64,000 nt of DNA, from contig NZ_CP136422.1 of assembly GCF_034355335.1 (NCBI RefSeq), forward strand, positions 747,001 to 811,000. Direction: 5' to 3'. The position numbers were made by a program, and so were the translations under genes. Below the pieces are notes generated by a model. It searched no databases, had not been told where the DNA came from, and saw only the letters and a program-made list of their open reading frames with translations. Below are positions 4,571-52,865 of the stretch, one piece after another (position 1 is the first letter of the stretch; each line of letters begins with the position of its first letter). Source of the DNA: Blautia coccoides. GTDB lineage: Bacteria > Bacillota > Clostridia > Lachnospirales > Lachnospiraceae.

Positions 4571-4759
4571 AACATAGGTTTCTGGATTCATCCTTGCATA
4601 TGCTAAAAAATTCAAATACGAAAAAGAGGAGCTTCTTGTATAATTCAAATATAAGGAATTCCGAGAAAGAAGGTTGAGAAAAAAATACCTCAGAGTAAAA
4701 TAAGATTACTGACTTTGGACGGTTAGTAAAAAATCTTATTAAACAGTGAGGTACTTGAA

Positions 4760-6049: not shown

Positions 6050-6560
6050 AGAGAAAGAAACAGTGAATCATGGCCGGTCTGAGCCTTTGAAAGGAAAGAA
6101 TGGAAGGCTGAGGCCAGCCATGATAGCTGGAAGAAACAAGTAAATGGAATGTAACAGGAAAACGTCCACCGAGAGGTGCTGTTGCAGGAAAAAGTCAGTA
6201 ATAAAAAAACAAAGAATGGAGCCAGTAGTCGGCAGGAATATTCACCAGAGGGCATGACCCTGTAAAGGAGCTGAGCTGACACCCTGGTTATGGACAGGCG
6301 GGACGAGAGAAGTTAGGACTCAGCAATGGTCTGATGATCCTGGTAGACATGGGAGGTTCGCTGCCGTAGATGGATGGGTACACACAAGGCCATGTAGAAC
6401 GAAAAGAGAAGACGTTTTATTTTGTGCACCCAAAATCCACTACTTTCGTACCAGATACAGAGAAATGTCCATTCCAATGGTTCTTTCTTCTGAGATATTT
6501 ATTGATGAAACATTAAAAAATCCTTGATTTTCAAGGAAAAAAGACTTGACTATATAGGGA
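6050..6560 (+). ncRNA. Conserved non-coding right end of IS110 copy 1 (candidate bridge RNA)
   Basis: About 510 nt without a convincing gene, yet well conserved with 18396-18920 (blocks such as AACGTCCACCGA, AGCCAGTAGTCGGCAG, GTTAGGACTCA and ATGATCCTGGTAGACA). The 7-mer GGGAGGT, identical to the right insertion junction, occurs inside at 6351-6357 and at the matching place in copy 2. Known IS110/IS1111 elements express a structured bridge RNA from one non-coding end; assigning that role here is inference. Confidence 0.5.
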
Positions 6561-16908: not shown

Positions 16909-17108
16909 AAGCAATCAAAAGGATGGCAGAAAAAATTATCGGCATAGTTTTTTTATATAATGTATCATCCTCTTAAAGGAGCTTCCTGTATAATTCAAAT
17001 ATAGGGAATTCCAAGAAAGAAGGTTGAGAAAAAAATACCTCAGTGTAAAATAAGATTACTGACTTTGGCGGTTAGTATAAAATCTTATTAAACAGAGAGG
17101 TATCTAAA

Positions 17109-18395
17109 ATGAATTGTAACACACAGAACACAAAAATTGCATCCATAACTGAAAAAACTTTGATCGTTGGTATTGATGTCGGAAGCGAAACGCACTATGC
17201 GAGAGCATTTGACTGGAGAAATTTCGAGTTTACCAGAAAACCTTTGATTTTCAGCAATACACAAGCAGGGTTCCTTACATTTAAGGCATGGATCGAGGAA
17301 ATACAAGAAAAGAATGGTAAAACCGCTGTAATTCCCGGAATGGAGCCAACAGGACACTATTGGTTCGCTTTAGGAAAGTTCCTGCAGGACAACGGAATGA
17401 AACCTGTGCATGTAAATCCCCATCATGTCAAGAAATCCAAGGAACTGGATGATAACAATCCTAATAAAAATGACCGCAAAGATCCAAAGACGATTGCCGC
17501 ACTGGTGAATGAGGGACGTTTTTCCTACCCTTATATACCAACCGGGATTTATGCAGAGATGAGAAGCTTATCCAATCTACGCTTCCAGACACAGGAGGAA
17601 GTTACCCGGATCAAGAACCGCATTGCCAGATGGTTTGCCATTTACTTTCCTGAATACAAAGACGTTTATAGGGATTTAAAGGCAGTCAGCGGGCGGATGA
17701 TACTGAAGGCAGCGCCGCTGCCGGAGGACATCGGGAAGTTGGGCGTGGAAGGTGTAAACCAGATCTGGAGAGACGCAAAGCTGAGAGGGGCTGGAATGAA
17801 GAGGGCAAAGACCCTGGTATCAGCTGCAGAGCACAGCGTAGGCAGTAAGGAAGCACCGGAGGCAGCGAGAATGGAACTGAAAAATCTGCTGGACGACATG
17901 GATGTATATACATCAAGACTGGAAGAACTGGTGCAAAAGATAGAAGGTAAGCTGAAAGAAATACCATATATAGATAAGCTGCTGGAGATCAAAGGGATCG
18001 GTATGGTGACAGTAAGTGGATTTATTGCAGAGGTGGGCGACATTAGACGTTTTGACAACCCCAAACAGCTGCAAAAGCTTGCAGGCTATGCGATCGTGGC
18101 GAACGATTCAGGCAAGCATAATGGAGAGAGCCGTATCAGCTACCGAGGAAGAAAACGACTGAGATATGTACTGTATGAAGCGGCGATATCACTAGTCGGA
18201 AAGAATGCGGAATTTCGAGAGATCCATGAATACTATCGGACGAGAAAAGAGAATCCGCTGAAAAAGATGCAGTCAGTAGTGGCAGTGGCATGTAAGGTGA
18301 TCAGGGTGTTTTATACGATCCTGACAAAAGGAGTCGATTATGACGCTGCAAGGCTGCTGGGTGATATCAAGCATCCGCAGATGCAGACAGCATAA
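17109..18395 (+). CDS. IS110-family transposase, copy 2
   Basis: A 428-aa protein, intact, with the same motifs as copy 1: VGIDVGSETHY, GMEPTGHYW, KNDRKDPKTIA, then IKGIGMVTVSGFIAEVGDI and GRKRLRYVLYEAA. Some regions (residues ~60-75 and ~260-285) differ clearly from copy 1. AGAGAGGT lies before ATG. Translation of both copies starts at the same place relative to the element end. Confidence 0.95.
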   Translation: MNCNTQNTKIASITEKTLIVGIDVGSETHYARAFDWRNFEFTRKPLIFSNTQAGFLTFKAWIEEIQEKNGKTAVIPGMEPTGHYWFALGKFLQDNGMKPVHVNPHHVKKSKELDDNNPNKNDRKDPKTIAALVNEGRFSYPYIPTGIYAEMRSLSNLRFQTQEEVTRIKNRIARWFAIYFPEYKDVYRDLKAVSGRMILKAAPLPEDIGKLGVEGVNQIWRDAKLRGAGMKRAKTLVSAAEHSVGSKEAPEAARMELKNLLDDMDVYTSRLEELVQKIEGKLKEIPYIDKLLEIKGIGMVTVSGFIAEVGDIRRFDNPKQLQKLAGYAIVANDSGKHNGESRISYRGRKRLRYVLYEAAISLVGKNAEFREIHEYYRTRKENPLKKMQSVVAVACKVIRVFYTILTKGVDYDAARLLGDIKHPQMQTA

Positions 18396-18920
18396 CGAAA
18401 CCAAACGATCCAAGTACTAAAAGCACTGCTCTGTCATGGTTGGATTGAACTTTCAAAGAGGATTGAAAGCTGAATCCAGCTATGACAGAAAAGCTGGAAA
18501 TATCAGGGATGGACCGGAAAAACGTCCACCGAAAGGTGCCGGTACAGGAAGGATATTAACAGGTCAGTAAGACTTAAAATAAAGAATGAGCCAGTAGTCG
18601 GCAGAAATAAATACCATAGGGCAAGACCCTGCAAAGGAGCTAAGCTGACACCCTGGATATGGGCAGGCAGAACGAAGGAAGTTAGGACTCACACCGACAG
18701 GTGGGATGATCCTGGTAGACACGGGAGGTAAGCTGCCATAGATGGAGGGGCATACACAAGGCCATATAAAGCGGAATAATGAGACGTTTTATTTTGTATG
18801 CCCAAAATCAGCTATTTTCGTACCAGATACACAGAAATACCCATCTTCACGGCTCATTCATCTGAGATATGTAACTAAAAATTCCTTGAAAAATAAGGAA
18901 AAAACACTTGACTATATAGG
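18396..18920 (+). ncRNA. Conserved non-coding right end of IS110 copy 2 (candidate bridge RNA)
   Basis: Aligns along its whole length with 6050-6560. GGGAGGT recurs inside at 18723-18729 and at the junction 18919-18925. Conserved outside coding frames, with several differences placed as if compensatory (for example CCACCGAGAGGTG versus CCACCGAAAGGTG). The bridge-RNA role is inferred from the IS110 family. Confidence 0.5.
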
Positions 18921-28250: not shown

Positions 28251-28898
28251 TTACGGAATTAACAGCTTGCCAAGACTCCGATCGTAATAATATGGATGGT
28301 CAGACAGACGCTCATCGGGGGCAACCAACTTTTCATTTACAAAGCAAATCGTTTCACGAAAGTAATCTTTATCCTTAGTGCCGTCATCAGGAAGAATAAG
28401 TAATTCATGGATACTGCTGGGAATTATAAAATAATTCTTTTTCAGTAGACCCCTGATTAGATGTAGAACACCATCATAAAGTATGGACGTTGCACCAAAA
28501 CAACGTGTTTCATTAGAGAGAATAAAACAAGGTAGATAATTCTCATTATCCTGTAATGATATTTCATCAGAATGTTCCTCTATCATAGAGTCCATTGACT
28601 CAAATGAGAGTGGAAACAGATTTGGGGTGTTTTTCTGTGCACAAGCCATAAGAGCTTTGGTATCTACATCCCATACCCGAAGCAAATCATTATTAATGGG
28701 AATACTTAAAAGTCCATCGTCTGTTATATCTAATGCAATGAAAAAGATAATTGCCAGATCAAGGTAAGGCATGTAGGGACGACCCGAAAATTCAGTTGCA
28801 TTTTTAGACACTAACTTATACAGAATTTGGTCTTTTACATCATCAAAATCAGTAAAGTGTGTCAAAGGGTTCTTTAATTTAGTTGTTTCAAGATTCAT
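28251..28898 (-). CDS. DUF5688 family protein
   Basis: A 215-aa protein. Matches DUF5688 proteins of Clostridial mobile elements (DFDDVKDQILYKLVSKNAT near the N-terminus, then NETRCFGATSILYDGVL, SIHELLILPDD and LSDHPYYYDRSLGKL). Function unknown. It is the first gene after attenuator leader A, with AAGGAG before ATG, and precedes ligA. Confidence 0.8.
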   Translation of the reverse strand: MNLETTKLKNPLTHFTDFDDVKDQILYKLVSKNATEFSGRPYMPYLDLAIIFFIALDITDDGLLSIPINNDLLRVWDVDTKALMACAQKNTPNLFPLSFESMDSMIEEHSDEISLQDNENYLPCFILSNETRCFGATSILYDGVLHLIRGLLKKNYFIIPSSIHELLILPDDGTKDKDYFRETICFVNEKLVAPDERLSDHPYYYDRSLGKLLIP

Positions 28899-28965
28899 GA
28901 TTTTTTTCTCCTTTCTTTGTTAAGCTGTGTATCCGTTGGATTCTCCATTTTCCCTCCTTTCGTGT

Positions 28966-29076
28966 TTAGGCACAAAAAAAGAGAATGGACACAATAGCGT
29001 TCATTCTCTCATTGCTGCAATAAATGCAAAATAAAAATGCCAGAGGTTCTGCATGGGCAGAATTATCCTCTGACAT
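28966..29076 (-). CDS. Upstream ORF in leader A (36 codons), runs through the terminator
   Basis: Starts MSEDNSAH like the ORF of leader B, but after a one-base difference it shifts frame, passes through the whole terminator stem and U-tract and ends at TAA 28966. The start context (TTTAGGTTTGTATTT before ATG) is conserved in both leaders. Whether it is translated is inference. Confidence 0.45.
   Translation of the reverse strand: MSEDNSAHAEPLAFLFCIYCSNERMNAIVSILFFCA
28974..29009 (-). terminator. Intrinsic terminator inside leader A (attenuator)
   Basis: Minus-strand stem AGAGAATG / CATTCTCT followed by seven U, located between promoter A and the DUF5688 start. Full-length mRNA needs read-through. 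Confidence 0.85.
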
Positions 29077-29170
29077 AAATACAAACCTAAACTGCATGTG
29101 AAATATCCAATCCGGATTACACAAATAATAATTACATCTTCAGTATAACACTATATGTTGTGGTAGTCAA
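28974..29170 (-). promoter_or_regulatory. Attenuator leader A (promoter, hairpin, upstream ORF, terminator)
   Basis: Promoter: TTGACT (29165-29170), 17-bp spacer, TATACT (29142-29147). Leader hairpin 29041-29072: CAGAGG and TTCTGC pair with GCAGAA and CCTCTG. Then the upstream ORF and the terminator. About 85-90% identical to leader B over ~245 nt. The plan matches ribosome- or ligand-controlled attenuation; downstream genes are DUF5688, ligA and a 55-aa protein. Confidence 0.8.
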
Positions 29171-29308
29171 ATGAAAAAAACGCTGTATAGTGTACATATA
29201 TCTTCTGTCATACACCATCAGTAAAGATGCTGGTCACTTCTATATTATAGTAGGGTATAGAGGTTAAGAGTTTACTTCGGATATATGCTTATGGGTATGC
29301 TTAAGGAA

Positions 29309-29794
29309 TTATCCCAGTTCTGTATTCAGCTTACTACGAATATCCATGAGGATGTTTCCTAAATGATTTTCACCGAAACCGTCAACACAACCCCAAAACC
29401 GGTCGCCCCATGTATTATCTTCAATCAATACTGAATCGCCCGTCGCAAGCAGTGCCTGCAACAGATTAGGATGCTGAAGGAATTTTGCAAAGCATATTTC
29501 GTACATATACCTTATTTTTACCTGATTCCAGTCTGGACGCAGTGTTAACTTACGTCCCAGTTGTTTTGCGACTGCAGGATTAGATAAGTGAGACATATAA
29601 AAATTTTGCTGTTCTTTTGTGTATATGGTTTTCTGTGCCTGAAAGGCAGCTTCATTGTTCGCATATCTGTGTCCCCGATAGGTTATTGGGGCATGATAAA
29701 AGTTACTGAGAAAAGCATATTTTCCTCGAAACTCAGTAATTGCTGGTATTCGTCTTAAATCAATGCATTGTATAGTTGTTTTACATTTTATCAT
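29309..29794 (-). CDS. NADAR (YbiA-like) family protein
   Basis: A 161-aa protein. ATG at 29794 is chosen because GGAGG lies 10 nt upstream; the open frame to 29938 adds 48 residues without homology. Core motifs FRGKYAFLSNFYHAPI, YANNEAAFQAQK, TLRPDWNQVKIRYM and EDNTWGDRFWGC are typical of NADAR. The family acts on N-glycosidic bonds of riboflavin intermediates or removes ADP-ribose from guanine in nucleic acids. Here, near a DUF3990 protein, a role in ADP-ribose reversal is possible but unproven. Confidence 0.85.
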   Translation of the reverse strand: MIKCKTTIQCIDLRRIPAITEFRGKYAFLSNFYHAPITYRGHRYANNEAAFQAQKTIYTKEQQNFYMSHLSNPAVAKQLGRKLTLRPDWNQVKIRYMYEICFAKFLQHPNLLQALLATGDSVLIEDNTWGDRFWGCVDGFGENHLGNILMDIRSKLNTELG

Positions 29795-29969
29795 TGTCAG
29801 TATACCTCCATAAAATATTGATTTTTGTGCCCCTTCCAATTTGTCGCAGTCACTTTTGTAAATAGGTGAAAGATAATTTCTCACATTAGGGCCTGGAAGG
29901 AGACCGCCGGCTTTATTTGTAAGAAAAAGCACCTCCATGCCATCCCAACCGTCAATTTAATACGTGCAT

Positions 29970-30191
29970 TTACCAGTTTCCTGTCATAAGTGAAATCAGA
30001 GAGTCGGTAGACCATCCGCAGATTGCGACTAATACAGCTTCTGTGTCCTTTTCTAAGAGTGCCTTGCAGAGTTGGTAGCCTATTTTATCCAGGGGTTCAT
30101 CATCTGTTGAGAGATGGTCAAATAATGTCTGTGCAAAATATTCGCAGGTTTCTGGATTCTCCATGATTTTCCTCAAACTTAGTTCGTTCAT
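29970..30191 (-). CDS. Small protein (73 aa), unknown
   Basis: Begins MNELSLRKIMENPETCEYF and ends STDSLISLMTGNW. GGAGG before ATG. The C-terminal segment recurs as TDSLISFMTQNR in the non-coding stretch near 33064-33110, so a paralogue was broken there. In the leader B operon. Confidence 0.6.
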   Translation of the reverse strand: MNELSLRKIMENPETCEYFAQTLFDHLSTDDEPLDKIGYQLCKALLEKDTEAVLVAICGWSTDSLISLMTGNW

Positions 30192-30221
30192 TTTTACAGC
30201 GCCTCCAATTAATAATACAGT

Positions 30222-30800
30222 TTAGATTCCATAAGGATTTTCAAAGGAATGAATATAAATATCCTGTTCTTCTAAGAGCATTTTCAGTTCATCAAAGGAG
30301 CTGGCATCATATCCTAGTCTCCCAAAGGTATCCAATATTTCTTGGCTTGAGCTGAAGAGAGACCAGTCTTCTAATACTTCACACACTTTGTTCCCTAAAG
30401 GAGTTAATTCGTTTTCATCGTTAATGCTGAGCATATATTCTTCAGGAAAAAAGCGCCCCTCTGTATCTGTATTAAAGTAGATACCTACTCCGGGCTCAAT
30501 ACTCCTACATACGAATGAGACCTTATAATGGCTTGCAATCGTTCGATACGCATCATAGAGAGGAGACCATGCGGTGCTTAATTCCAAAAGTATTCCGTCT
30601 ATATTGCGTTCTTTGTAAGTCACCGTTCCATAAAGGCAGATACCGGTAGTTGGAATCCCTTTACATTGAAATAAACGGCCTATCCAAGCATCAGTAGGAG
30701 AAGTATTAATTGAGGCTTCAATATCTTCCCAAAGGTTTTGCAATCCTTCGGGATTGCTGTCTGAATAAAAATAAAGATCATCGCTACATATATTTGCCAT
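30222..30800 (-). CDS. Api92/DUF1281-like protein (ferredoxin-like fold), leader B operon
   Basis: A 192-aa protein. The N-terminus MANICSDDLYFYSDSNPEG and the Trp/Tyr pattern (STAWSPLYDAYRTIASHYKV) resemble plasmid and ICE proteins of the YubB/Api92 type. Function unknown. GGAGG-like site before ATG. First gene after leader B. Confidence 0.6.
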   Translation of the reverse strand: MANICSDDLYFYSDSNPEGLQNLWEDIEASINTSPTDAWIGRLFQCKGIPTTGICLYGTVTYKERNIDGILLELSTAWSPLYDAYRTIASHYKVSFVCRSIEPGVGIYFNTDTEGRFFPEEYMLSINDENELTPLGNKVCEVLEDWSLFSSSQEILDTFGRLGYDASSFDELKMLLEEQDIYIHSFENPYGI

Positions 30801-30956
30801 TATTCACCTCCCCCCAATCCCATAATCTCATATGTGTAATTATGTTGATTGAGAATACTTTTAATTTTAAAATTTCCAATAATATTTATCTCCTTTCTTT
30901 AAATTCATGTGTGCATCCGTTGGATTTTCCCGTTTCCCTCCTTTCGTGTTTCGGCA

Positions 30957-30993
30957 CAAAAAAAGAGAATGGACACAATAGCGTTCATTCTCT
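30957..30993 (-). terminator. Intrinsic terminator inside leader B (attenuator)
   Basis: Same stem AGAGAATG / CATTCTCT followed by seven U as in leader A. Confidence 0.85.
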
Positions 30994-31062
30994 CATTGCT
31001 GCAATAAATGCAAAATATAAAATGCCAGAGATTCTGTCATGGGCAGAATTATCCTCTGACAT
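30985..31062 (-). CDS. Upstream ORF in leader B (25 codons)
   Basis: Starts MSEDNSAHDRISG and ends FIAAMRE, with its TGA in the terminator stem. The same peptide tail FIAAMRE exists in leader A in another frame, so leader B probably keeps the ancestral form. Start region TTTAGGTTTGTAATT is conserved but only weakly Shine-Dalgarno-like. Confidence 0.5.
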   Translation of the reverse strand: MSEDNSAHDRISGILYFAFIAAMRE

Positions 31063-31214
31063 AATTACAAACCTAAACTGCATGTGAAATATCCGATTCG
31101 GATTACACAAATAATGATTACATTTTTAGTATACCACCATATGTTGTGTTGGTCAAACGGAAAATGCCATATATAGCACATGCGGGGATGCAGAAAATCT
31201 GTTCCATAAGGGAA

Positions 31215-31382
31215 CTATTTATCTGATTCTTCAGGTAATCTTTTCAATATTTTACACTCATGGATATAGTTCCCTGCTTTGAGTTCAACAATCTCACCTT
31301 CAACATATTCTTTTGGCGAGTGGATCCGGATTTCTTCATTCCTGGTCAGGTCATATGCAGCGTAACCAATGTTTTCAGACAT
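31215..31382 (-). CDS. Small protein (55 aa), unknown
   Basis: Begins MSENIGYAAYDLTRNEEIR and ends KILKRLPEESDK; beta-rich middle (KEYVEGEIVELKAG). AGGAG lies 8 nt before ATG. Lies just upstream of promoter B and downstream of the third IS110, which may have cut its own promoter. Confidence 0.55.
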   Translation of the reverse strand: MSENIGYAAYDLTRNEEIRIHSPKEYVEGEIVELKAGNYIHECKILKRLPEESDK

Positions 31383-31642
31383 ATTATCAACTCCTACTAT
31401 TATATAAAGTCATAGTCTTTCTTTACCTTTTCTACAGGTTTGACTATGCTATTTTAAGATACTGTGGATTGGTTATCACCTCCTACCACTTGATGGTTTA
31501 AAAAAGGCTCCAACCACAGTCTCTTTGTTTATTTGTTAATCAGTTAGTTACCGCATGACGGTTTATCAAGAAGTAGGTTACGATTGCAAGGAGCCCTGTG
31601 GATCTTAAGACAGTATCAATACTTTATATCAGGAGGTCCTAT
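31383..31642. other. Left non-coding part of the third IS110 element
   Basis: No gene. The left end of the element must lie here but cannot be fixed without an empty-site comparison. Short inverted repeats (for example GGCTCC and GGAGCC around 31507 and 31588) are consistent with the bridge-RNA-bearing left end of classical IS110 elements. Confidence 0.4.
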
Positions 31643-32818
31643 ATGATTTACGTAGGAATTGATGTCGCAAAAGATAAGCATGATTGCTTTATCACAAACT
31701 CTGATGGCGAAGTCCTTTTCAAGGCTTTTACCATCAAAAACAATCTCGATGGGTTCGACGAGCTTTATCAGAAAATAGAATCCGTTATGGAAGATGCTTC
31801 TAAAGTAAAAGTAGGCCTAGAAGCCACTGGACACTATAGTTACAATCTTCTCGGATATCTGCTTGATAAAGGTCTGGCCACCTTTGTTATCAACCCGTTA
31901 CATACTAATCTGTACAGAAAAAGTCTAAGCCTTAGACAGACGAAAACGGATAAAGTTGATGCCCATACAATTGCTTCTATGCTAATGTCTGACGTGAACT
32001 TAAAGTCCTACTCAGACACATCGTATCACAACGAAGAGCTTAAGTCACTTACTCGCTATCGTTTTGATAAAGTTAAAGAACGCGCGAAGCTTAAAACATC
32101 TATATCCCGTCTTGTATGTATCCTTTTCCCTGAGTTAGAAAAGCTTGTTCCAACACTTCATCAGAATTCTGTTTATGAGTTACTCTACGAATTTCCTGGT
32201 GCAAAACAGGTAGCTAATGCACATCTCACAAGACTTTCAAATCTTCTTGAAACCGCATCTAAAGGCCACTACACAAAAGAAACCTCTATCGCTTTTAGAG
32301 AGGCTGCAAGAACCTCTATCGGTTCAAATATGCCAGCTAAATCGCTTGAATTAAAGCACACCATTAAGCTCATTAGAGAGCTAGATTCTGAAATCGAAGA
32401 GATTGAAAACGAGATTAAAGTCATCATGGATGAAATCAATTCTCCAATCCTTAGCATTCCTGGAATCAGCTATCGAATGGGTGCCATGATTATTGCTGAA
32501 ATAGGTGACTTTAGCCAATTCGACTCTCCAGATAAGATCCTTGCTTATGCAGGAATGTCGCCTTCTACCTATCAATCCGGCCAGTTAGATAACTGTTATG
32601 CCAGAATGGAAAAACGTGGTTCTAGATACCTTAGATATGCTCTGTTTAATGCAACCGCATATGTTTGTCTATGGGATCCAACCTACAAGGCTTATCTTGC
32701 CAAGAAACGAGCTGAAGGCAAGCATTACTATGTTGCAATGTCTCACGCGACCAAGAAACTAGTTCGGCTAATTTATCATCTCGAACGCACTGGACAGCAA
32801 TACCAAAAAGCAATCTAA
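31643..32818 (+). CDS. IS110-family transposase (distinct from the two other copies)
   Basis: A 391-aa protein. ATG 31643 is preceded by AGGAGG (31631-31636). DEDD motifs: YVGIDVAKDKHD, LEATGHYSYN and KTDKVDAHTIA. C-terminal part: ILSIPGISYRMGAMIIAEIGD and KRGSRYLRYALFNATAY. Intact. It is only distantly related to the copies at 4760 and 17109. It is the only plus-strand gene in the long minus-strand ICE region, a recent insertion between two ICE operons. Confidence 0.93.
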   Translation: MIYVGIDVAKDKHDCFITNSDGEVLFKAFTIKNNLDGFDELYQKIESVMEDASKVKVGLEATGHYSYNLLGYLLDKGLATFVINPLHTNLYRKSLSLRQTKTDKVDAHTIASMLMSDVNLKSYSDTSYHNEELKSLTRYRFDKVKERAKLKTSISRLVCILFPELEKLVPTLHQNSVYELLYEFPGAKQVANAHLTRLSNLLETASKGHYTKETSIAFREAARTSIGSNMPAKSLELKHTIKLIRELDSEIEEIENEIKVIMDEINSPILSIPGISYRMGAMIIAEIGDFSQFDSPDKILAYAGMSPSTYQSGQLDNCYARMEKRGSRYLRYALFNATAYVCLWDPTYKAYLAKKRAEGKHYYVAMSHATKKLVRLIYHLERTGQQYQKAI

Positions 32819-33084: not shown

Positions 33085-33234
33085 TCAGAGAATCTGTAGT
33101 CTGATTCCATCTGTATAACGGATATGGTAGCGGTTTGCAAAATCCGTTTCAAATTTATTCTGTTTGCAAATCCCGTGTGCTTTTTGCACCTCAGTGTGTT
33201 TCAAAGCAATTTCTATTGGCTTCCTATTGCTCAT
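33085..33234 (-). CDS. Small basic protein (49 aa), unknown
   Basis: Begins MSNRKPIEIALKHTEVQKAH and ends TDGIRLQIL. The ATG overlaps the end of the upstream gene (ATGAGCAATAG), which favours translational coupling. The last residues overlap, in another frame, the paralogous fragment noted at 33064-33110. Confidence 0.45.
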   Translation of the reverse strand: MSNRKPIEIALKHTEVQKAHGICKQNKFETDFANRYHIRYTDGIRLQIL

Positions 33235-33790
33235 ATGATATACTATCATTTTCTTTTCCAACCAATGTTGATTTTGAGTAAATGAGCAGTTTTCCTTGTA
33301 AATCTATAGGGGAATCCGTCCAGGTGTCATTTTCATATATTCGCTGCGTCAGCGTATTATAGATGACTGGGTCTTTATCTAAATCAAATAGATCAACAAC
33401 TAGACAGGTCTGTAGATTAATGTATGGCCAGAGTGCCAGTTCCACCAGGCGGCGTAACTCTAGTGCCAGATGATGGATAGTTTCCACGTCATAAGTTCTG
33501 GAGAGGCTCTTCCCCATTTCTTTCAACAGCCCGGAATCGGCTATCGCTTGGTTTATGGCAGAAACCTGTTTCTCCAGGGAAATATCAGGATTGAGGATAA
33601 TTCCTTTTAGCACTACGTCCTTTGCAAATGCAGTAGCCGTTTGGCTGATTTTCAGCAGCAGCTCTTCATAAGCGTTCTTATACTGCGTCTTCAGGATGGC
33701 AGTCCCTACATATTCACGATTTTTCTTCAGAGTAGAGAGCAGTTTTTGCAAACTGCTCCCTAATTCATAAATATTTGATGTCAAGCGCAC
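33224..33790 (-). CDS. Helical 188-aa protein, unknown (ICE operon)
   Basis: Begins MRLTSNIYELGSSLQKLLS. Long helices, heptad-like in the first 130 residues. No motif recognised. Overlaps the upstream gene by 10 nt. Part of a six-gene operon with the methyltransferase. Confidence 0.65.
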   Translation of the reverse strand: MRLTSNIYELGSSLQKLLSTLKKNREYVGTAILKTQYKNAYEELLLKISQTATAFAKDVVLKGIILNPDISLEKQVSAINQAIADSGLLKEMGKSLSRTYDVETIHHLALELRRLVELALWPYINLQTCLVVDLFDLDKDPVIYNTLTQRIYENDTWTDSPIDLQGKLLIYSKSTLVGKENDSISYEQ

Positions 33791-35341: not shown

Positions 35342-35878
35342 TTATATCAGTGCAATTTCCCGGAGCCTTTTACGCATATTATAAAAACAGTGGTTTACTA
35401 CATAGGGAGTCATACTACATAATTTTGCGATTTCCCTGTATGTGTAGCCCTGTGCTTTTAAATGTACGATAGTTTTCTCCTTTGGTGATAAAAGAGCAAG
35501 CAGGTTGACAAGGAGTGTTTGATTATCCATTGTCTCTGCAATCATAGACATTCTGTCCGGAAGAAAAGTGTCCAACGAGTTTGATTCAAGATCCTCATGA
35601 TACTCAGCCATATTTGCTCTTCGTTTTGAACGATTCTGATAAATGTACTCTTGAATCACACAGTCTTTCATTTTACGCCATGCGATTGTAGAAAATTTGA
35701 AACGTGACAATTCTGGTTTTTCCAGGTATTCCCGCACGGCTTTCAGGTAGCCAAAAATCACAACATCATAAAACTCAGATTCATCTAAGCGGTTTAATCG
35801 CAAAAATCTGTAAACCAGATTGTGATGCTCAGCTGCATATTCCTTTTGTTCCATTGTTAGTGCACTTAAATGTATCAT
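35342..35878 (-). CDS. Sigma-70 family factor encoded by the ICE
   Basis: A 178-aa protein. The region-2-like N-terminal half (HHNLVYRFLRLNRL, DVVIFGYLKAVREYL, FSTIAWRKMKDCVIQEY) and region-4 HTH (LSPKEKTIVHLKAQGYTYREIAKLCSM) are clear. Starts 15 nt before the methyltransferase operon genes. Probably directs RNA polymerase to ICE promoters. Confidence 0.8.
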   Translation of the reverse strand: MIHLSALTMEQKEYAAEHHNLVYRFLRLNRLDESEFYDVVIFGYLKAVREYLEKPELSRFKFSTIAWRKMKDCVIQEYIYQNRSKRRANMAEYHEDLESNSLDTFLPDRMSMIAETMDNQTLLVNLLALLSPKEKTIVHLKAQGYTYREIAKLCSMTPYVVNHCFYNMRKRLREIALI

Positions 35879-41375: not shown

Positions 41376-42134
41376 TCACCAGTTGATTTCCAGTCCAAAG
41401 TCTGTTGCCGTGGCATTTAATTCGTCCTCGTTCAAAATAGAAGCGAGTATGGTCCAGTATGGTTTCGGAGGGAAATATTCAAAAATATCTTTTACGTCTT
41501 TTTGGTCACCTTTAGTAATATAAAGTTCTCCTTGGCTACTGATATATAGCTTCTGATAGCCTTTGGGGTATACGTCCTGAATAACTTTGTCTAAAAGTGG
41601 CTTTCCAATTAAGTCATACCAAGACTGGGGATCAATCGAATTTTCTGTATCTGCCATTGTTTGTTTTCCCAGGGTCTCGATCATCATCATCTGCATATGG
41701 AGCTGTCCATATTGATCTACGTACAGTTCGGCATGGTTGAAATTATTCGTGCCTTTTGTCACAATACGTAAAAGAGTTCCTTCAACGAAATCATGAACAG
41801 AGGGTGTTTGCTCCCAATCCCAGGTAGCTTCTGGATAAGCGGACTTCAGTTTCCCGGTAATCCGATGGCTTATTTGGCATAGGAGAAATGTTTCCATCTG
41901 TTCATCTGCAGTAATTGTGGAACGCTTAGGCTTTTTTAGCCTGATTTTTTTCTTTAGTCTTTTAAATGGCATTAAGCGGGGGAAGAACAGCACAATCGTT
42001 CCTAATACACCCACGATAATCAGGCATAGCATCCAATAGCGGTTTTGGGGAGCTGGTATAAAGATGGCTAATAAAAATAACAGTAAGATAACCAGCCGCA
42101 AAAATATCATTTCCTGACTTTTTTTTCTTTTCAT
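41376..42134 (-). CDS. Membrane-anchored ICE protein, unknown
   Basis: A 252-aa protein with two N-terminal TM helices (LVILLLFLLAIFIPA and MLCLIIVGVLGTIVLFF), a basic linker, then a cytosolic domain of ~180 residues (VHDFVEGTLLRIVTKG, YLDQ-like strands). No family recognised. It precedes the AAA ATPase gene by 20 nt and follows the SSB terminator. Confidence 0.7.
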   Translation of the reverse strand: MKRKKSQEMIFLRLVILLLFLLAIFIPAPQNRYWMLCLIIVGVLGTIVLFFPRLMPFKRLKKKIRLKKPKRSTITADEQMETFLLCQISHRITGKLKSAYPEATWDWEQTPSVHDFVEGTLLRIVTKGTNNFNHAELYVDQYGQLHMQMMMIETLGKQTMADTENSIDPQSWYDLIGKPLLDKVIQDVYPKGYQKLYISSQGELYITKGDQKDVKDIFEYFPPKPYWTILASILNEDELNATATDFGLEINW

Positions 42135-42152: not shown

Positions 42153-42195
42153 AGAAAAAAAGAGGAACTGCTGAAAGTGTCTTTAGCAATTCCTC
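42153..42195 (-). terminator. Intrinsic terminator after ssb
   Basis: GAGGAATTGCT / AGCAGTTCCTC stem followed by TTTTTTTC on the minus strand. Confidence 0.85.
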
Positions 42196-42219
42196 GACTT
42201 TGATTTTATTAGTAATTGA

Positions 42220-42876
42220 TTATTTGAATGGAAGCTGTTGCGCTCCAGTGGGGTAATTTTCTGATACATTATTAAAATTACCTTGAGCCGGGGCAACAGG
42301 AGGCTGGGGTGGTTCCCCGTTATAATAACCTGTGTACCCAGGATTTGCCGGTGCCGCCTGTGTCTGATAATTCTGATAGGCGGAGTTTTGCTGTGGAGGA
42401 GCGCTGTAATTAGGTGCGGTGCCTTGCTGAGGAGTAGAACCGTTGTTAGGCGGAGCCATCCCTGGATTTGATGCGGGCATACCACCTGCATTATAATTGC
42501 CAGCAGGGGGATTGGCATTGGGTGCTGCCGGATTATTTTCTGTACGATTTGCAATTACAAACTGCCAGTCAGATACAGAAATTTTGGCATTTATGCCTGC
42601 CTGACCTTGTTTTTGACCTTTTTGGTAGATAAAAGACTGTAATTCCAGTGGGCCATAAATCCATAAGCAGGTTCCGCTTTTGACCTTTGCATTCAGAAGA
42701 CGCTGTCCCTGAAACTTGTTGAAATAACAATTGTAAAAAATGGTTTCATTCTCTCCCTTTTGGTTCCTCTGGGTAACAGCAACATCTAACAAAACATATT
42801 CACTTCCTCCGTTTTGAGCTTGCTGCATGACGGGGTCCTTTGTTGGTCTCCCCATGATGTGAATGATTGATGACAT
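42220..42876 (-). CDS. ssb: Single-stranded DNA-binding protein
   Basis: A 218-aa protein starting MSSIIHIMGRPTKDPVM, where AAGGAG is 7 nt upstream; the longer frame to 42948 is not needed. The OB fold (residues 1-110: IFYNCYFNKFQGQRLLNAKV, LWIYGPLELQSFIYQKG) is followed by a Pro/Gly/Asn/Gln-rich tail. The end PTGAQQLPFK resembles the protein-interaction tip. It protects ssDNA during conjugative transfer and replication. Confidence 0.88.
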   Translation of the reverse strand: MSSIIHIMGRPTKDPVMQQAQNGGSEYVLLDVAVTQRNQKGENETIFYNCYFNKFQGQRLLNAKVKSGTCLWIYGPLELQSFIYQKGQKQGQAGINAKISVSDWQFVIANRTENNPAAPNANPPAGNYNAGGMPASNPGMAPPNNGSTPQQGTAPNYSAPPQQNSAYQNYQTQAAPANPGYTGYYNGEPPQPPVAPAQGNFNNVSENYPTGAQQLPFK

Positions 42877-42902: not shown

Positions 42903-43058
42903 CTATAAAAAATTGTGAAATAAAAAAAGTGCCATTATGAAACCGCATAATACGGCTAACATAATGACACTAATTTCCAAACTTAAACTTCGTGTGTCCC
43001 GGATGAATGGTCCGGACTCCCGCATTGGGGATAACACAAATCTTATATACAGGTACAT
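42903..43058 (-). CDS. Possible small membrane protein (51 aa)
   Basis: Begins MYLYIRFVLSPMRESGPF; a single strong TM helix (ISVIMLAVLCGFIMALFLF) at the C-terminus. No ribosome site, so support is weak. Confidence 0.3.
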   Translation of the reverse strand: MYLYIRFVLSPMRESGPFIRDTRSLSLEISVIMLAVLCGFIMALFLFHNFL

Positions 43059-43105
43059 AATAACACAAGATATTGATATAGTCAAATAAAAAACACAATA
43101 TATAG

Positions 43106-44017
43106 TTAAAAGTATGATTTGTTGATAAAATCTTTCAGGCTGGTGCATACCTCATCATAAGAGACAGGTTGAAACAAAAGTCCTTTTGTAATGGTTTCAT
43201 AATCCTCTTTATAAATTTCTCTTTCCAATATTTCAGTTAATAACTTCAGGATTTCTATCCCTTCTTTGGCAGAGGGGCAGTTTGGAAGAGGTTCCCGCAG
43301 CTGCCGTACCTCCTTTACCAACGCTGGAAAAGAATCTGCTAGAGAAACGGTCTGTAAAATCTTGTGTATATCATATAAATGCCGGGAATGTCTTGAAATT
43401 TGACCATCCAAATAGTAATCACAAATAGCAAATATTTTATCGATCAGTGTGCGTTCAATTTCTTGGGTGATAATGGGAAAGGGTAACAGCTGGTATTCTT
43501 CAGCTACGTTATGAAGACCTTCATTATCAAGAAATTTATGTAAATAGCTGTCAACTGGGCGCTGACAGGTGGGAAAGGGGAGCAGGGCAACATAGGTTTC
43601 GATTACCAGCTCCGGTTTTAAAACTGTCTGGATACCGAACTGGCTGGAATAGGCTGCTTTGTAGCAATTATAATTACGCCGGCTTCGTGTCTCCTCAAGA
43701 TTGGATATACAAAAGCCAAGAGCCTCTATGGATTCTATAACCCCCTTCTTTAAACGGCGTTTCCTGCTCTCACCAGGGACACCGGATGAAGCAGTATAGG
43801 AAAGATCGATGTCTTCAGAAAATCGGTCGATTAGTTGATAACACTTGGAAAGTGAGGTGCCTCCTTTGAATACCATATCAGGAATACGGTTGGAGAGTTC
43901 ACGCAAGACCAGCGTAACATAATAATCTTTTTCTATGATATAAGCTGGTATGTGAAAAACATCTGAAGCTCCGCCGATTAGTTCTTCAAAAGTTTCTTTA
44001 TCCTCATGTAAAAGCAT
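43106..44017 (-). CDS. abiEii: AbiEii/AbiGii nucleotidyltransferase toxin
   Basis: A 303-aa protein. KGGTSLSKCY followed by FSEDIDLSY is the nucleotidyltransferase motif of type IV toxin AbiEii (GSx10DxD-like). Overlaps the antitoxin gene by 14 nt. The AbiE system gives phage defence by abortive infection and stabilises mobile elements. Confidence 0.88.
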   Translation of the reverse strand: MLLHEDKETFEELIGGASDVFHIPAYIIEKDYYVTLVLRELSNRIPDMVFKGGTSLSKCYQLIDRFSEDIDLSYTASSGVPGESRKRRLKKGVIESIEALGFCISNLEETRSRRNYNCYKAAYSSQFGIQTVLKPELVIETYVALLPFPTCQRPVDSYLHKFLDNEGLHNVAEEYQLLPFPIITQEIERTLIDKIFAICDYYLDGQISRHSRHLYDIHKILQTVSLADSFPALVKEVRQLREPLPNCPSAKEGIEILKLLTEILEREIYKEDYETITKGLLFQPVSYDEVCTSLKDFINKSYF

Positions 44018-44627
44018 AGATAATCCTCCATTCTATAAGTTTTTTGGCAGTATAGCCAGTCATCGCTGGTACAACAGAGGATAAATCCTCTTGTGTAAAG
44101 CCGCTTCCACGGACATAATTTATCAAAATCTGGATGGTTTCTTTCTGAGACAACTCGGAATATTTTTCCGCTTGGTTCACAGCATCCAAAAATTGTAATA
44201 CTGCAGCATTTTGCGGAGTTACAGTTATTGCTGGACGTTTGATCCGAACGGTCAGATTACCAATGGTGACTGTGCGGCCATTTGTAGATTCCTTATTGGT
44301 AACAATCTCAATAGTGGCAGGCATCTGCGTTGTAAGACCAAGCTGATTCGCAAAAATTGCCCCAGTAAAATAACCAAAGGTGTCTAAACTGTTTTGGATG
44401 TATTTTCGGGAAATTACTTTCTGGGGGTCCAAATAACTTTTTTTCAGTATTCTGGATTTTTTCGGAAAATAGTAGATACCTGTATCGTAGCGTACAAGCT
44501 GTCCATTCTTTACTAGACGAGTAATATATTGGCGCAGGGCATTGTCTGTCATTTTATCGAATTTCAATTCATTAACAAAAATAGGTTCATTGTAGCCATA
44601 GGTTTCCTTCAAATAATTTTCCAACAT
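44004..44627 (-). CDS. abiEi: AbiEi-type antitoxin (winged helix, DUF6088-like)
   Basis: A 207-aa protein starting MLENYLKETYGYNEPIF at 44627, the start with an AGGAG site 11 nt upstream; an upstream in-frame ATG at 44654 is possible. N-terminal winged helix (LRQYITRLVKNGQLVRYDTGIYY), then a C-terminal domain. It represses its own operon and neutralises AbiEii. Confidence 0.82.
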   Translation of the reverse strand: MLENYLKETYGYNEPIFVNELKFDKMTDNALRQYITRLVKNGQLVRYDTGIYYFPKKSRILKKSYLDPQKVISRKYIQNSLDTFGYFTGAIFANQLGLTTQMPATIEIVTNKESTNGRTVTIGNLTVRIKRPAITVTPQNAAVLQFLDAVNQAEKYSELSQKETIQILINYVRGSGFTQEDLSSVVPAMTGYTAKKLIEWRIIYAFT

Positions 44628-44726
44628 GATAGCATCCACTCCTTTCACCTCCATAATACAATATTTATATAAAGAATGTCAAATAATATTACATATTATG
44701 GACGGAAAAATTAGGATCTATACTAT

Positions 44727-47296: not shown

Positions 47297-47875
47297 TCAA
47301 TTTAACAGGGCGTAAAGTTGTTTGTCACAACGCAGCTTGGCGGCAGCTTTACTCTTCCATGCACGTATGTGATTAGCAGGTACACCGAAATGCTGTGCAA
47401 TATCTGTACTGTTATATCCTTTTGCGGTCAACAATAAAGTGGCAATTCCTTTACTCATGATTCCAGTATTCTGCTTTTCCAGCATCATCAAATAGGCATC
47501 TGTCTCTGCTTCGCATATTTCAGATTCCGGGTTTCCTGTGCCTGAACGCAGTAAAGTTTCAAATGAGATTTCGTCTGTATCTGTCAAGGTTTCGGACAAG
47601 GAACAGGTTCGTTGGTGATAGCGCATTGCCAAACGATATTGATCCAGTAAAGCATTGCGTATGACTGTTTTTGCATATGGTTCAAATGGACGCCCATCGT
47701 CAAAACGCATCGCTGCTTTACATAGTGCTAGGCACCCTACTTGATAAAGTTCATCCGCATTCATCTCTGGCATAGATGAATTGCTTATAGACAATCCACG
47801 TATGACTTTAGTTACCAAGTGCAGATTCTTTTCGACAAGAGCTTGCCAAGTTGTAGGCACATACTCTGTTTTCAT
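47297..47875 (-). CDS. Sigma-70 family factor, second ICE copy
   Basis: A 192-aa protein starting MKTEYVPTTWQALVEKN. Region 2 (DELYQVGCLALCKAAMRFDD, then FEPYAKTVIRNALLDQYR) and region 4 HTH (GYNSTDIAQHFGVPANHIRAW) are visible. It lies 15 nt after the zinc-finger gene. A second ICE-encoded sigma-like factor besides 35342-35878. Confidence 0.8.
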   Translation of the reverse strand: MKTEYVPTTWQALVEKNLHLVTKVIRGLSISNSSMPEMNADELYQVGCLALCKAAMRFDDGRPFEPYAKTVIRNALLDQYRLAMRYHQRTCSLSETLTDTDEISFETLLRSGTGNPESEICEAETDAYLMMLEKQNTGIMSKGIATLLLTAKGYNSTDIAQHFGVPANHIRAWKSKAAAKLRCDKQLYALLN

Positions 47876-47890
47876 TTGCCACACCACCTT

Positions 47891-49193: not shown

Positions 49194-52100
49194 TTATGAT
49201 TTGTTTCTGCGTTTCTTATAAAACAGATAACCACCAGCTGAGATGAGAGCAAGGGAAGCAAAAGCCAGTATCAGGTAGAAAATAAAAGGAGTTTCGTCAC
49301 CCGTTTTTACTGGGCTTGATTTTGTTGTATTTTCTGATGGGGGTTCTGGTGGTGGCTCTTTGGGGAGTTCAGTAACTTTTACGGTTTGTCCCTTATCGTT
49401 TATATCCTCATGAGTGGCAATTAAGACTTCCGTTTTCCCATGAACGTAGAGAAGCTGTTCAAAGACGACAACTTCGTGTCCTGCAAGTGTCCTGGAGTCG
49501 AATGTAAAGCTCAATTCTACATTGCCGTCCGGCTTTTTGGGGATGAACTCTGTCTCAGACGTCACCTGCTTATTGTCGATCAGTAATGCCTTCCCGGTTT
49601 TTTTATCCATCAGGATACCTTTTATGCGGTAAGTATGTTTGCCGTCACTTATAAGATTTTTATAACTCACAGTATCCACAATAGTAACTTTTGTGTTTGT
49701 CGCCACTTCTTGATCACCATCTTCTCTATCCTTAGCAGAAGTCCTGATTTCCGGGAAGTAGATGGTCTGAGATTCATCCGTGATATCTGCATGGACAGCG
49801 ACCTCTTTCTTATTTACAGTGAGAGTCTCAAAAGCTACGATTGTTTTACCTTTTAGTTCACTACCGTCAAAGGTAAAGGTCAGCTCTATGCTGCCGGATG
49901 GTTCTTCGGGGATAAACTCTGCTTCGGCAGTAACCTGTTTGCCATTCACTTCCAAAACTTTTTTAGTTTCTTTATCCATCAAAACACCTGACAGATGATA
50001 GGTTCTGCCATCAGCAATCAGATTTTTGTATTCGACCATGTCTACAAGTGTTACTTCTTTATCTGCAGCAGCGTGATGGCTGTCGGTCTCTTTATCTGAG
50101 GCAGTAGTTGCAAGCTCCGGGAAAAGAATGGTCTGCCCGATATCCTCAAAATCTGCATGGGCTGCGACTTCCTTGTCCTTGTAAGTGACAGATTCAAATA
50201 CAACAACAGTTTTCCCACGCAGTTTGGAACCGATAAAGGTGAATGGGATGTCTACGGATCCAGAAGACTTTTTGGGCGTGAATTCCAATGTGGAGGTTAT
50301 CGGCTTTCCATCTGCTTCTACCGGTTTCCCAGTTTCCTTATCCATTAAAGTTCCGGTTACATGAAATGTCTCTCCAGGAACTAAATTTTTGTAAGTCATG
50401 GTGTCTATCAGGGTTACTTCCTCATCTGCGCAGGAAAGATTGCTGTCAGTATCTGCATCTTTGGCAGAGGTACTCACTTCTGGAAAGTAGACGGTCTGAT
50501 CCTCGTCAGTAATATCCGCATGGACTGCAAGTTTTAAATCTTCCTGATATAGCTCCTCAAATACAACCACTGTCTTGCCTTTTAAGGATGTGGCATCGAA
50601 AGTGAATTTTACTTTTACAGAGCCAGTAGATTTTTTTGCTTGAAAGGTAGTTTCTGCGGTCACTGGTTTTCCATCAATTTGGATTGGTTTTCCTGTTTCC
50701 TTATCCATGAGCGTACCTACCAATTTATATTCCTGCCCTTTTTTTAGCCCTTCAAATTCTACAGTATCCACTAACGTAATGGATTTTTCTGGTTTTGCCA
50801 TGTGAGAACCGCTTTCGTCATCCACTGCAGTGGTAGCGATGGTAATCTGGTCATCCGTCAGAGTCCCTAAGTCAACGGTAACCTTGTCCTTATAGACAGT
50901 TGCCTCGAACTTTAGGAGGTTCATACCCTCATTTACCTTGCATTTCTGTTCTTCTATGATATAGGTATCATAAATAAGGGCGCCTTTGGAATCATCCGGC
51001 GCAGAGCTGCCAAACCAGATTCCGTCTTCTGAAGTCTCGCCCCGATTGGTGTTTGCTGTATGTTTATTCCACTCTGCGGATGTGCTGGCATAGCCATTTT
51101 TGTCCGTTACCAGTGTATGGCTTTCACCGGTTGTTTTTGATGTGATGGAAAATGGAACATTGGCCAGGCGGTTTAAGTCTCCGTCGGACACTTTGACAAA
51201 TTCCAAATCACCCCGTATGACCTGATTGAGGATGGAATTGTCCTCAGAAGTCAGTTCCACGATTTTACCGTCTTCCACAATATCAAACTCAATGGATATT
51301 TTTCCGGTATTTAAGTATCCTTCAGGCGGTGCTATCTCATCAATACGGTAATGCCCAAAGGGGAGAGCATCTTTTTTCGTAGAGGCAATTCCTGCGGCAT
51401 TAGCTTTGAGGGTCATCACTACCTGGTTGGGTGCATAGGACTTCCCATTCACTAGAACCGGATTATTGTTTAGCGTGGTTATAGTAAATTCCGCATGTTC
51501 CAGGGATGTCCCACCCTGAGCCTCCGCTTTTTTTGTTTCCCAATCTCTTTTTTGTATCTTAACACCGCCCCGGAGGAGTTGTTCTTCAGCAATTATCACG
51601 TTGTATACAGAGATGGTTTCTTTCTTTCCATCGCCAACAATCTTTTGGACGAATACAGTATCATTGATTTTATATCCGCTGGGGGCTTTAGTCTCCTGGG
51701 CAGTAACAGTACCAATAGGGAAGCAGGCGGCTTTTCCATCATTATCGTAGTAGAACTCGTCACCAGAAACCAGATATTCCTTCGTAAAATGGATTTCTCC
51801 TTTGGCATCTGTTTTTAAAACCCAGGTACGTTTTGGTTTTTTTCCGCTGAGTGCAGGATCTGTATCAGATAATTCTTCATAAAACTTGAATGTAAATTCT
51901 GCATCTTTTAGAGTACCAGTCCCTTGGGGGAGATTTGTGCCAGTTTCTGCGTCCAGTTTTTGTAAAAGTAAGTCAACTGGGTTATTGGTCGGATTTTCTG
52001 GGACTTTCACGGTCTGAGTTTCTTCTGCGGTAACGGACACTTTATATTCCCGAGTGTCAATGGCGAAGCCAACGGGAGATTCCAGCTCTTTTAAAGTGTA

Positions 52101-52847
52101 ATTTCCTTCTTCAAGTTCTCCGGATTTTGCATAACCTTTTTCATCAGTTACTAAAGTTTCCACAAGCTTATCTTTTTTGTAGATACCATATTTGGCTCCC
52201 TTTAAGCTGTAATTTTCATTATCTTTGGAAACGGCATCATTGGAAGAAGACTTGCGTATTTCCAGAAATCCATTGGGGCGTTCGTACCAGCTTCCCGCTA
52301 TCGTTTGGCTGCCATAGCCTATTACAATAAAAGCTTTAAAAGATTTCGGGGGCGCTGGCAGTGATTCGATAGCGCTGGTGACAGCGATTGCCTTATCGAT
52401 GAAGCTCTGTGGTGCGCCATAGAAGGCGCCGCTGTTTGCATCTTTGCCAGCATATAAATACGCAACGACCAAATGACCAATCACATAGGCGTTATCGGTG
52501 CTCCAGTCATCCAAGTGTTGCTTTTTGATATTAGCGTCATAACCATATCCGCCAGGCAAATAATATAGTGCCTGGCGCACTATAGAATTTTTAGGAAGAT
52601 AATCGTATTCGTATTCTCCGGGAGCAGGTGTGCTTTTCATTGGCTCTAAGCAATAAGCTGTGTTATCTCCATCAAAGCTCATATGTGTGGTAAAGTAATC
52701 CCCATAAGGGATGGTAGGACCTGAATTAAAAGTCAAGGTTCCATCGGCTGCCTGAACCGGAATGCTGGCAAACGGTGACAAGGCTAAAAGGATAGCCATG
52801 AGATATGCGATTATCCTTGTATTATATCTTTTTGTTTCATTAATCAT
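49194..52847 (-). CDS. VaFE/SpaA-repeat surface adhesin with thioester-type N-domain
   Basis: A 1217-aa protein. ATG at 52847 is used because AGGAGG is 6 nt upstream (it touches the ATG at 52853). Signal peptide to about residue 35 (LALSPFASIPVQAADG). N-terminal TED-like domain with NTAYCLEPMKS and GAPQSFIDKA, which may form a Cys-Gln thioester. About three SpaA-type isopeptide domains, then four ~120-aa VaFE repeats each containing LMDKETGK and VVVFE motifs. C-terminal anchor SPVKTGD, TM helix, KKRR. Probably a mating-pair or host adhesin displayed by sortase. It is transcribed with the conjugation genes. Confidence 0.88.
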   Translation of the reverse strand: MINETKRYNTRIIAYLMAILLALSPFASIPVQAADGTLTFNSGPTIPYGDYFTTHMSFDGDNTAYCLEPMKSTPAPGEYEYDYLPKNSIVRQALYYLPGGYGYDANIKKQHLDDWSTDNAYVIGHLVVAYLYAGKDANSGAFYGAPQSFIDKAIAVTSAIESLPAPPKSFKAFIVIGYGSQTIAGSWYERPNGFLEIRKSSSNDAVSKDNENYSLKGAKYGIYKKDKLVETLVTDEKGYAKSGELEEGNYTLKELESPVGFAIDTREYKVSVTAEETQTVKVPENPTNNPVDLLLQKLDAETGTNLPQGTGTLKDAEFTFKFYEELSDTDPALSGKKPKRTWVLKTDAKGEIHFTKEYLVSGDEFYYDNDGKAACFPIGTVTAQETKAPSGYKINDTVFVQKIVGDGKKETISVYNVIIAEEQLLRGGVKIQKRDWETKKAEAQGGTSLEHAEFTITTLNNNPVLVNGKSYAPNQVVMTLKANAAGIASTKKDALPFGHYRIDEIAPPEGYLNTGKISIEFDIVEDGKIVELTSEDNSILNQVIRGDLEFVKVSDGDLNRLANVPFSITSKTTGESHTLVTDKNGYASTSAEWNKHTANTNRGETSEDGIWFGSSAPDDSKGALIYDTYIIEEQKCKVNEGMNLLKFEATVYKDKVTVDLGTLTDDQITIATTAVDDESGSHMAKPEKSITLVDTVEFEGLKKGQEYKLVGTLMDKETGKPIQIDGKPVTAETTFQAKKSTGSVKVKFTFDATSLKGKTVVVFEELYQEDLKLAVHADITDEDQTVYFPEVSTSAKDADTDSNLSCADEEVTLIDTMTYKNLVPGETFHVTGTLMDKETGKPVEADGKPITSTLEFTPKKSSGSVDIPFTFIGSKLRGKTVVVFESVTYKDKEVAAHADFEDIGQTILFPELATTASDKETDSHHAAADKEVTLVDMVEYKNLIADGRTYHLSGVLMDKETKKVLEVNGKQVTAEAEFIPEEPSGSIELTFTFDGSELKGKTIVAFETLTVNKKEVAVHADITDESQTIYFPEIRTSAKDREDGDQEVATNTKVTIVDTVSYKNLISDGKHTYRIKGILMDKKTGKALLIDNKQVTSETEFIPKKPDGNVELSFTFDSRTLAGHEVVVFEQLLYVHGKTEVLIATHEDINDKGQTVKVTELPKEPPPEPPSENTTKSSPVKTGDETPFIFYLILAFASLALISAGGYLFYKKRRNKS

Positions 52848-52865
52848 AAACATCCTCCTAAAGTT

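Follow-up and report, generated by a model that had tools for sequence, protein, structure and literature searches.

Two described systems, canT and conAn, appear by analogy to be nearest in logic to the leader RNAs reported here; conAn is reportedly widespread in conjugative elements. In lambda, Q binds near the promoter and N acts at an RNA site, and through N/nut and Q/qut operons across the element are opened by readthrough of promoter-proximal terminators. Both modes of action are also stated in PMC11658703, in the part of that source drawn on here, which describes canT of Tn916 as a cis-acting RNA antiterminator of a Gram-positive conjugative element. conAn of pLS20 combines a protein, ConAn1, with an RNA, conAn2, in promoter-linked processive antitermination of a conjugative element (PMC8955417, in the sections used), and the NusG paralog LoaP acts with the dfn and mln leaders, a leader hairpin and an intrinsic terminator recurring in several operons of its regulon (PMC12691694, likewise in part). 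The put RNA of phage HK022 and EAR are RNA structures that make polymerase resistant (portions of PMC8955417 and PMC11658703).

Here we describe a leader that precedes four operons (A to D) of Blautia coccoides, three of them in the window, by which we mean the whole stretch of 64,000 nt that was analysed (assembly GCF_034355335.1, contig NZ_CP136422.1, positions 747,001-811,000, forward strand). With canT it would share an antitermination RNA and terminators ahead of the element's operons; the two are set apart by description and not by Tn916 sequence, in that fragments of 341-452 bp from one region were studied there (PMC11658703, in the part consulted), whereas cassettes of ~100-170 nt stand here at four promoters. 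The features given above for conAn, LoaP and lambda, as for put and EAR, are those in which these systems would resemble the leaders; the lambda systems belong to different hosts. The core covariance model R2, made up of the closing helix of a domain P0, a single-strand motif and a hairpin P1, matched bases 1-50000 of pLS20 at chance level (E 0.35 and 0.39), and the first two proteins of the pLS20 operon, which may include ConAn1, gave best E values of 0.32 against 425 host ORFs and 0.21 against the stretches from relatives. No match to R2 at E ≤ 10 was found in bases 1-40000 of HK022. Since the host genome encodes one NusG-domain protein only (a single PF02357 match, at 321599) and no NusG paralog, a LoaP regulon does not fit. 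No Rfam family reached its gathering score in the window, or an E value of 1 over 28850-31450, and nine leader loci searched at E ≤ 0.5 gave one chance match, outside the leader, in agreement with an earlier note on this DNA that no named family fits. A literature search of titles and the starts of abstracts found the leader undescribed; the paper on the distribution of conAn lay beyond its reach and is the main gap as to novelty, and the proposed antitermination cassette is new as far as these searches extend.

The earlier note had recognised leaders A and B. Leader B, on the minus strand, starts with its -35 box at 31156, finishes with a T run whose last base is 30958, and is a genuine sister of leader A (29170 to 28974, minus strand); its 17-nt promoter spacing (TTGACC 31156-31151, TATACT 31133-31128) and its intact ORF, ending in the last hairpin, are as that note had them (Table 1). 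The likeness of the two leaders also stands, at a figure slightly above the 85-90% first given: identity is 94% over 214 nt, and two ungapped blocks give 95% and 88%. Against dinucleotide shuffles both are the better folded, with z scores of -5.8 (A) and -4.5 (B), and none of 200 shuffles did as well. The first hairpin, P1, on which the note did not remark, is also terminator-like, and its T run is longer in most relatives. Just upstream of leader B lies an IS110-type gene (31598-32818), distinct from two other IS110-family transposase gene regions of the window (4627-6501 and 16977-18873), which are ~12.35 kb apart and 75-96% alike.

Table 1. Features of leaders A, B and C and of the genes that follow them, in window coordinates
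Feature	Position	Strand	Remark
Leader A promoter	29142..29170	-	spacer motif 29160-29149
Leader A P0	29097..29123	-	
Leader A single-strand motif GTTTAGGTTTGTA	29080..29092	-	
Leader A P1 hairpin	29037..29076	-	
Leader A P3, second terminator hairpin and T run	28974..29010	-	
First gene after leader A, DUF5688	28251..28898	-	then NAD-dependent DNA ligase 28220-26217
Leader B promoter	31128..31156	-	TTGACC, 17-nt spacer, TG-extended TATACT; common spacer motif 31146-31135
Leader B P0	31083..31109	-	closing helix UGUG/CACA, inner hairpin AUCC..GGAU
Leader B 32-codon ATG ORF	30985..31083	-	unconserved; judged non-functional
Leader B single-strand motif GTTTAGGTTTGTA	31066..31078	-	
Leader B P1 hairpin	31022..31062	-	terminator-like in relatives; T run weaker in B
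Leader B P2, small hairpin	30999..31013	-	
Leader B P3, second terminator hairpin and T run	30958..30994	-	
First gene after leader B, 192 aa	30222..30800	-	no Pfam family; then NADAR gene 29938-29309
Leader C promoter	43057..43085	-	spacer motif 43075-43064
Leader C P0	42993..43038	-	larger domain, two inner hairpins
Leader C single-strand motif GTTTAAGTTTGGA	42976..42988	-	
Leader C P1 terminator hairpin	42922..42970	-	T7 run
First gene after leader C, ssb-like	42220..42876	-	218 codons from ATG at 42876
Further terminator hairpin and T run	42154..42197	-	between ssb and next gene (start codon 42134)

A genome-wide search for more copies, which the earlier note had proposed, brought the number of R2 copies in the host to four by adding C and D. 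Leader C, found with the first covariance model, lies in the window ahead of an ssb-like gene (43085-42922, minus strand); a second terminator was looked for in it and none was found. An AbiEii toxin-like gene and an adjacent DUF6088 gene occupy 43106-44654, just upstream. Leader D lies outside the window, from genome position 690419 onward, with its R2 match at 690461-690611 on the opposite strand. Two divergent genes, for an HTH_17 protein and an integrase, lie 295 and 648 nt, respectively, from that match; the operon of D encodes, in order, an unknown protein of 376 aa, a nuclease (YqaJ), a helicase resembling RecD and a protein bearing a zinc ribbon of DnaG type. The layout in relatives, such as G053 with all four leaders within 48 kb, suggests a single element for D and the other three. 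The claim that one leader RNA is common to several operons is borne out. The D operon of relative L060 has a strong terminator-like hairpin between genes (17967-17989). A divergent gene for a Cro-like HTH protein of 105-138 aa adjoins six of the seven D-type leaders examined (rows L141, L142, L148, L059, L147 and L150). It is absent from the host's own D locus, and the host element region has weak matches only and no close copy, on which ground we rejected it as the common factor.

In the C operon, the terminator behind ssb stands 29 nt ahead of the next start codon. A hairpin of this kind was found 51-80 nt past the ssb stop in 13 of the 15 leaders tested, some of them weak, with energies from -9.6 to -32 kcal/mol. 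These 15 remain from a set of 19, the other four lacking an ORF of 100 codons within reach, and they include two near-duplicate pairs, L057/L154 and L151/L160. Two sigma-70-like genes (ECF superfamily) occur in the element, one in the C operon (35342-35878, above the TIGR02937 cut-off) and one at 47297-47887, with relatives in 11 and 8, respectively, of 16 compared groups; from the position of the former, genes under leader control may pass regulation on, in a cascade, to genes under sigma control. The proteins encoded at 41376-42134 and 33224-33790 match no Pfam or NCBIfam family and recur in 13 and 12 of the 16 compared leader-flanking groups; the latter, of 188 aa, has many homologues, none with a function given.

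Model matches numbered 96, of which 93 were used after L030 (the same locus as L118), L093 (at a contig end) and L069 (the weakest) had been dropped; these comprise 79 distinct sequences in 33 clusters. The cassette occurs mainly in Lachnospiraceae, and the large mobile element that bears it is one of gut bacteria. A same-family sample gave 64 R2 matches in 26 of 397 genomes, 21 of the 26 carrying two to four copies, while a class-level sample gave matches in 3 of 391 genomes, the host counted. By blastn over 145 genomes, matches were found in five, that is, the host and four others with 72-76% identity, and one faecal scaffold matches the leader at 70%. The exact 21-nt motif pattern occurs in 40 stretches of a named genome collection, mostly titled as Lachnospiraceae genera or unnamed Clostridia, with one Gemmiger formicilis. 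R2 at E ≤ 1 matches all 40, one being cut by a contig end and one weak (E 0.0026), and several of these loci are themselves rows of R2. Two exact patterns, the second being the one with 40 stretches on genome contigs, had no match among viral contigs, and a phage origin was rejected on that count. The scaffold MT835792.1 (L005; 27,920 bases), which carries the leader followed by a ligase gene and is filed as 'Bacteriophage sp.', is an unannotated faecal sequence and probably a piece of such a conjugative element.

A first ORF starting within 420 nt and preceded by a ribosome-binding-site-like sequence follows 75 of the 93 leaders, 18 having none by that test. It encodes DNA ligase in 28 cases, ssb in 15, DUF5688 in 10, the 376-aa protein in five, YqaJ in four, a 281-aa protein in three and a 67-aa ORF in two, with eight singletons; names derive from Pfam matches in the host and, for the ligase group, also from resemblance. 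Over the first 6 kb behind the leaders (44 stretches) there is no excess of sense-strand terminators (54 sense vs 58 antisense). In a midpoint-rooted tree of 44 leaders from 18 genomes, the leaders of each genome are scattered across the tree, D-type leaders form one clade of seven (100/99), ssb-type leaders form three clades (9, 2 and 4 rows), and A and B pair (99/90). This pattern indicates that the split between D-type leaders and the rest is old and the duplication that gave A and B recent.

The leaders share one order of parts, from 5' to 3': the promoter, P0, the single-strand motif, P1 with its T run, and often a second terminator. The closing helix of P0 varies (UGUGY/RCACA, or UUAUGC/GCAUAA in D-type leaders), and its inner hairpins number from three down to none in Gemmiger L099, whose bare hairpin indicates that the interior of P0 is dispensable. 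P0 folds better than shuffles, with a mean z of -2.1 and values below -1.5 in 22 of 33 clusters. The motif, GUUUARGUUUGUA or variants of it, is less paired than in shuffles in 26 of 33 clusters, and P1, whose base is conserved in sequence as well as in pairing, starts a few nucleotides past it. A second terminator hairpin follows within 170 nt of P1 in 24 of 33 clusters, against 2.7 expected from mononucleotide shuffles; a stricter scan, limited to one unbranched hairpin, finds at least one terminator in 52 of the 79 copies and at least two in 17 (7 of 33 clusters). The helices of P0 and P1 covary as judged from 81 distinct rows, in an alignment that was fitted to the structure and so leans towards pairing: 94.3% of pairs are standard, and 127 double-change cells compare with 40.5 in shuffles and with lower counts in every slid control. 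The nine close copies alone show slight covariation (2 of 39 pairs, covariation term +1.04).

The promoters are conserved beyond the usual hexamers. In 31 of the 33 clusters a promoter was found by a search that required a TTGAC-like start, and its spacer is 17 nt in 29 and TG-extended in 30 of these. Positions -26 to -15 read approximately CNATATMTTGTG; over the 30 clusters in this count, which also required a 17-nt spacer and weighted the TG, so that only the other spacer positions are independent, conservation reaches 28/30 for C at -26, 29/30 for A at -24, 28/30 for A at -22 and 29/30 for T at -21. In Gram-positive promoters the TGTG of the spacer motif is to some extent an expected feature. 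Around -57 to -47 stands a related but weaker motif, CTATATATAGT. A weight matrix, whose training clusters include A, C and D, picks out exactly A, B, C and D over 680-831 kb and nothing in shuffled sequence, and a degenerate pattern fitted to the four found no fifth site in the 6.1 Mb host genome (reversed control 0). Promoter motif and leader RNA thus occur together. A simple consensus scan listed the promoters of A, B and C and none of their hairpins. The common spacer motif and the weaker one upstream suggest that a DNA-binding regulator or a loading factor acts at the promoter, which makes doubtful the earlier view of control by RNA and not protein; a DNA-binding protein is suggested as well.

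The cassette is real, conserved and wider than first reported, and its kind is most likely a promoter-linked antitermination cassette of an ICE family. Tentatively, as something quite possible though short of probable, we propose that each leader, as promoter plus RNA, opens the ICE operons by processive antitermination when the element is active. By default, polymerase starting at the common promoter would stop ~100-170 nt on, at one or two predicted intrinsic terminators. In the active element, on some signal, a putative factor, whose site may be the promoter-spacer motif or the nascent P0 and GUUUARGUUUGUA, would alter polymerase so that it reads through the terminators of the leader and later ones, and the ligase, ssb, DUF5688 and replication/recombination operons would be switched on together. 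The proposal draws on features that comparison of the copies shows, namely the conserved anatomy, the multi-copy regulon, the absence of a conserved ORF and of lineage-specific alternative pairing, and the further terminator inside the ssb operon. Because that terminator lies so close ahead of the next gene, the ~9 kb body of the operon appears to depend on readthrough, barring a hidden promoter within ssb. Also in favour are the joint occurrence of promoter motif and leader, the covarying helices, the hairpin between genes of the D operon in L060 and the dispensable interior of P0; against the proposal stand the lack of a general terminator excess behind the leaders, the lower yield of the stricter scan, the absence of the hairpins of A, B and C from the consensus scan and the slight covariation of the nine close copies. 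Where two hairpins with different stems stand behind one motif, a change to polymerase suits better than a local block.

Such a local block is the essence of one unlikely but serious alternative, in which a protein or small ligand on P0 and the motif blocks or allows P1 and affects the leader's own terminators only. Riboswitches and BglG/LicT-type antiterminators work as local attenuators, and the closeness of P1 to the motif, the several helices of P0 in many copies and the conservation of the base of P1 beyond pairing would all suit such a device. In a classical attenuator some upstream segment has to compete with the terminator; here the upstream parts have no lineage-specific pairing with either arm of P1 across the 33 clusters, in a test blind to pairing between invariant segments. 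Duplex energies from the 3' side of P0 and the motif do not favour true over swapped partners (-7.05 vs -7.29 to the 5' arm of P1, -8.26 vs -8.68 to its 3' arm), whereas the controls are specific (P0 -6.07 vs -5.26, P1 -20.4 vs -12.9, true vs swapped); on this basis an antiterminator in which the 3' strand of P0 would pair with the base of P1 was rejected. Pairing of the motif with a conserved GCCURAAC past P3 was also rejected, by inspection and not by a formal count: it suits leader A along with several close relatives, leaves a mismatch in B and fails in C. Also against local attenuation are the frequent second terminator with its different stem, the bare P0 of L099 and the extra terminator after ssb.

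The proposed antitermination could, alternatively, be the work of the RNA alone, as in canT, EAR or put, with a repressor or activator at the promoter motif controlling the element. We consider this rather improbable. The promoter motif common to the cassettes and the Cro-like gene beside most D-type leaders would agree with it, as would the description of canT as such a cis-acting RNA (PMC11658703, in part); against it, the host element has no close copy of that gene, and one may argue that, were every transcript resistant, terminators just behind the RNA would do little. A more specific version of the factor-dependent reading, on balance unlikely, is a lambda-like regulon of conjugative elements in which a single element-wide factor, loaded at the promoter spacer, would pass to the nascent P0/GUUUARGUUUGUA RNA and thereby let only those polymerases that began at the four promoters cross the tandem and internal terminators. 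If true, it would join promoter loading of Q type and RNA loading of N type in one Gram-positive system.

It is most improbable that the terminated leaders are trans-acting small RNAs, or their hairpins mere insulators against outside transcription with other promoters driving the genes: the strong units, promoter to terminator, of ~100-170 nt would favour such a reading, but the first gene lies close behind each leader, and within the window the three leaders themselves are the only sites with a mismatch-free complement of the motif, a result that also disposed of an antisense RNA.

The earlier note had read the ORF of leader B as encoding a stalling peptide, with a ribosome on it preventing formation of the terminator, and had proposed a comparison of codons between copies. 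The TGA does lie, as stated, in the 5' arm of P3, the last hairpin, where that arm ends, and control by a ribosome finds no support in the comparison. At the place of its start codon the 79 distinct copies have ATG in 15, ACG in 52, AAG in seven and others in five, the last including two in which the motif search was misanchored (L145_6994 and L153_3820). The peptides from the 15 ATG copies range from 1 to 70 codons and are unrelated, one being common only among near-identical leaders, and A and B differ by two 1-nt indels that shift the frame. No upstream ORF with a conserved peptide or conserved control codons was found in the 79 copies. Other copies retain the terminator hairpins with an unrelated ORF or none, the very outcome that the earlier note had named as refuting its view. 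Leader-peptide attenuation, for which the ending of B's ORF in P3 speaks, is accordingly rejected as having next to no likelihood on these sequences.

Coordinated silencing and switching-on of the operons of integrated conjugative elements has been worked out in few elements. For such work the cassette offers a defined test site, a way to look for the factor and a covariance model with which further elements of this kind can be found, and, if the processive reading holds, it would be a compact antitermination system unlike in sequence to those compared here. Next to the conjugation genes of the window lies a gene for a 1219-aa surface protein (49194-52853) with a thioester domain, SpaA folds and T-Q ester domains.
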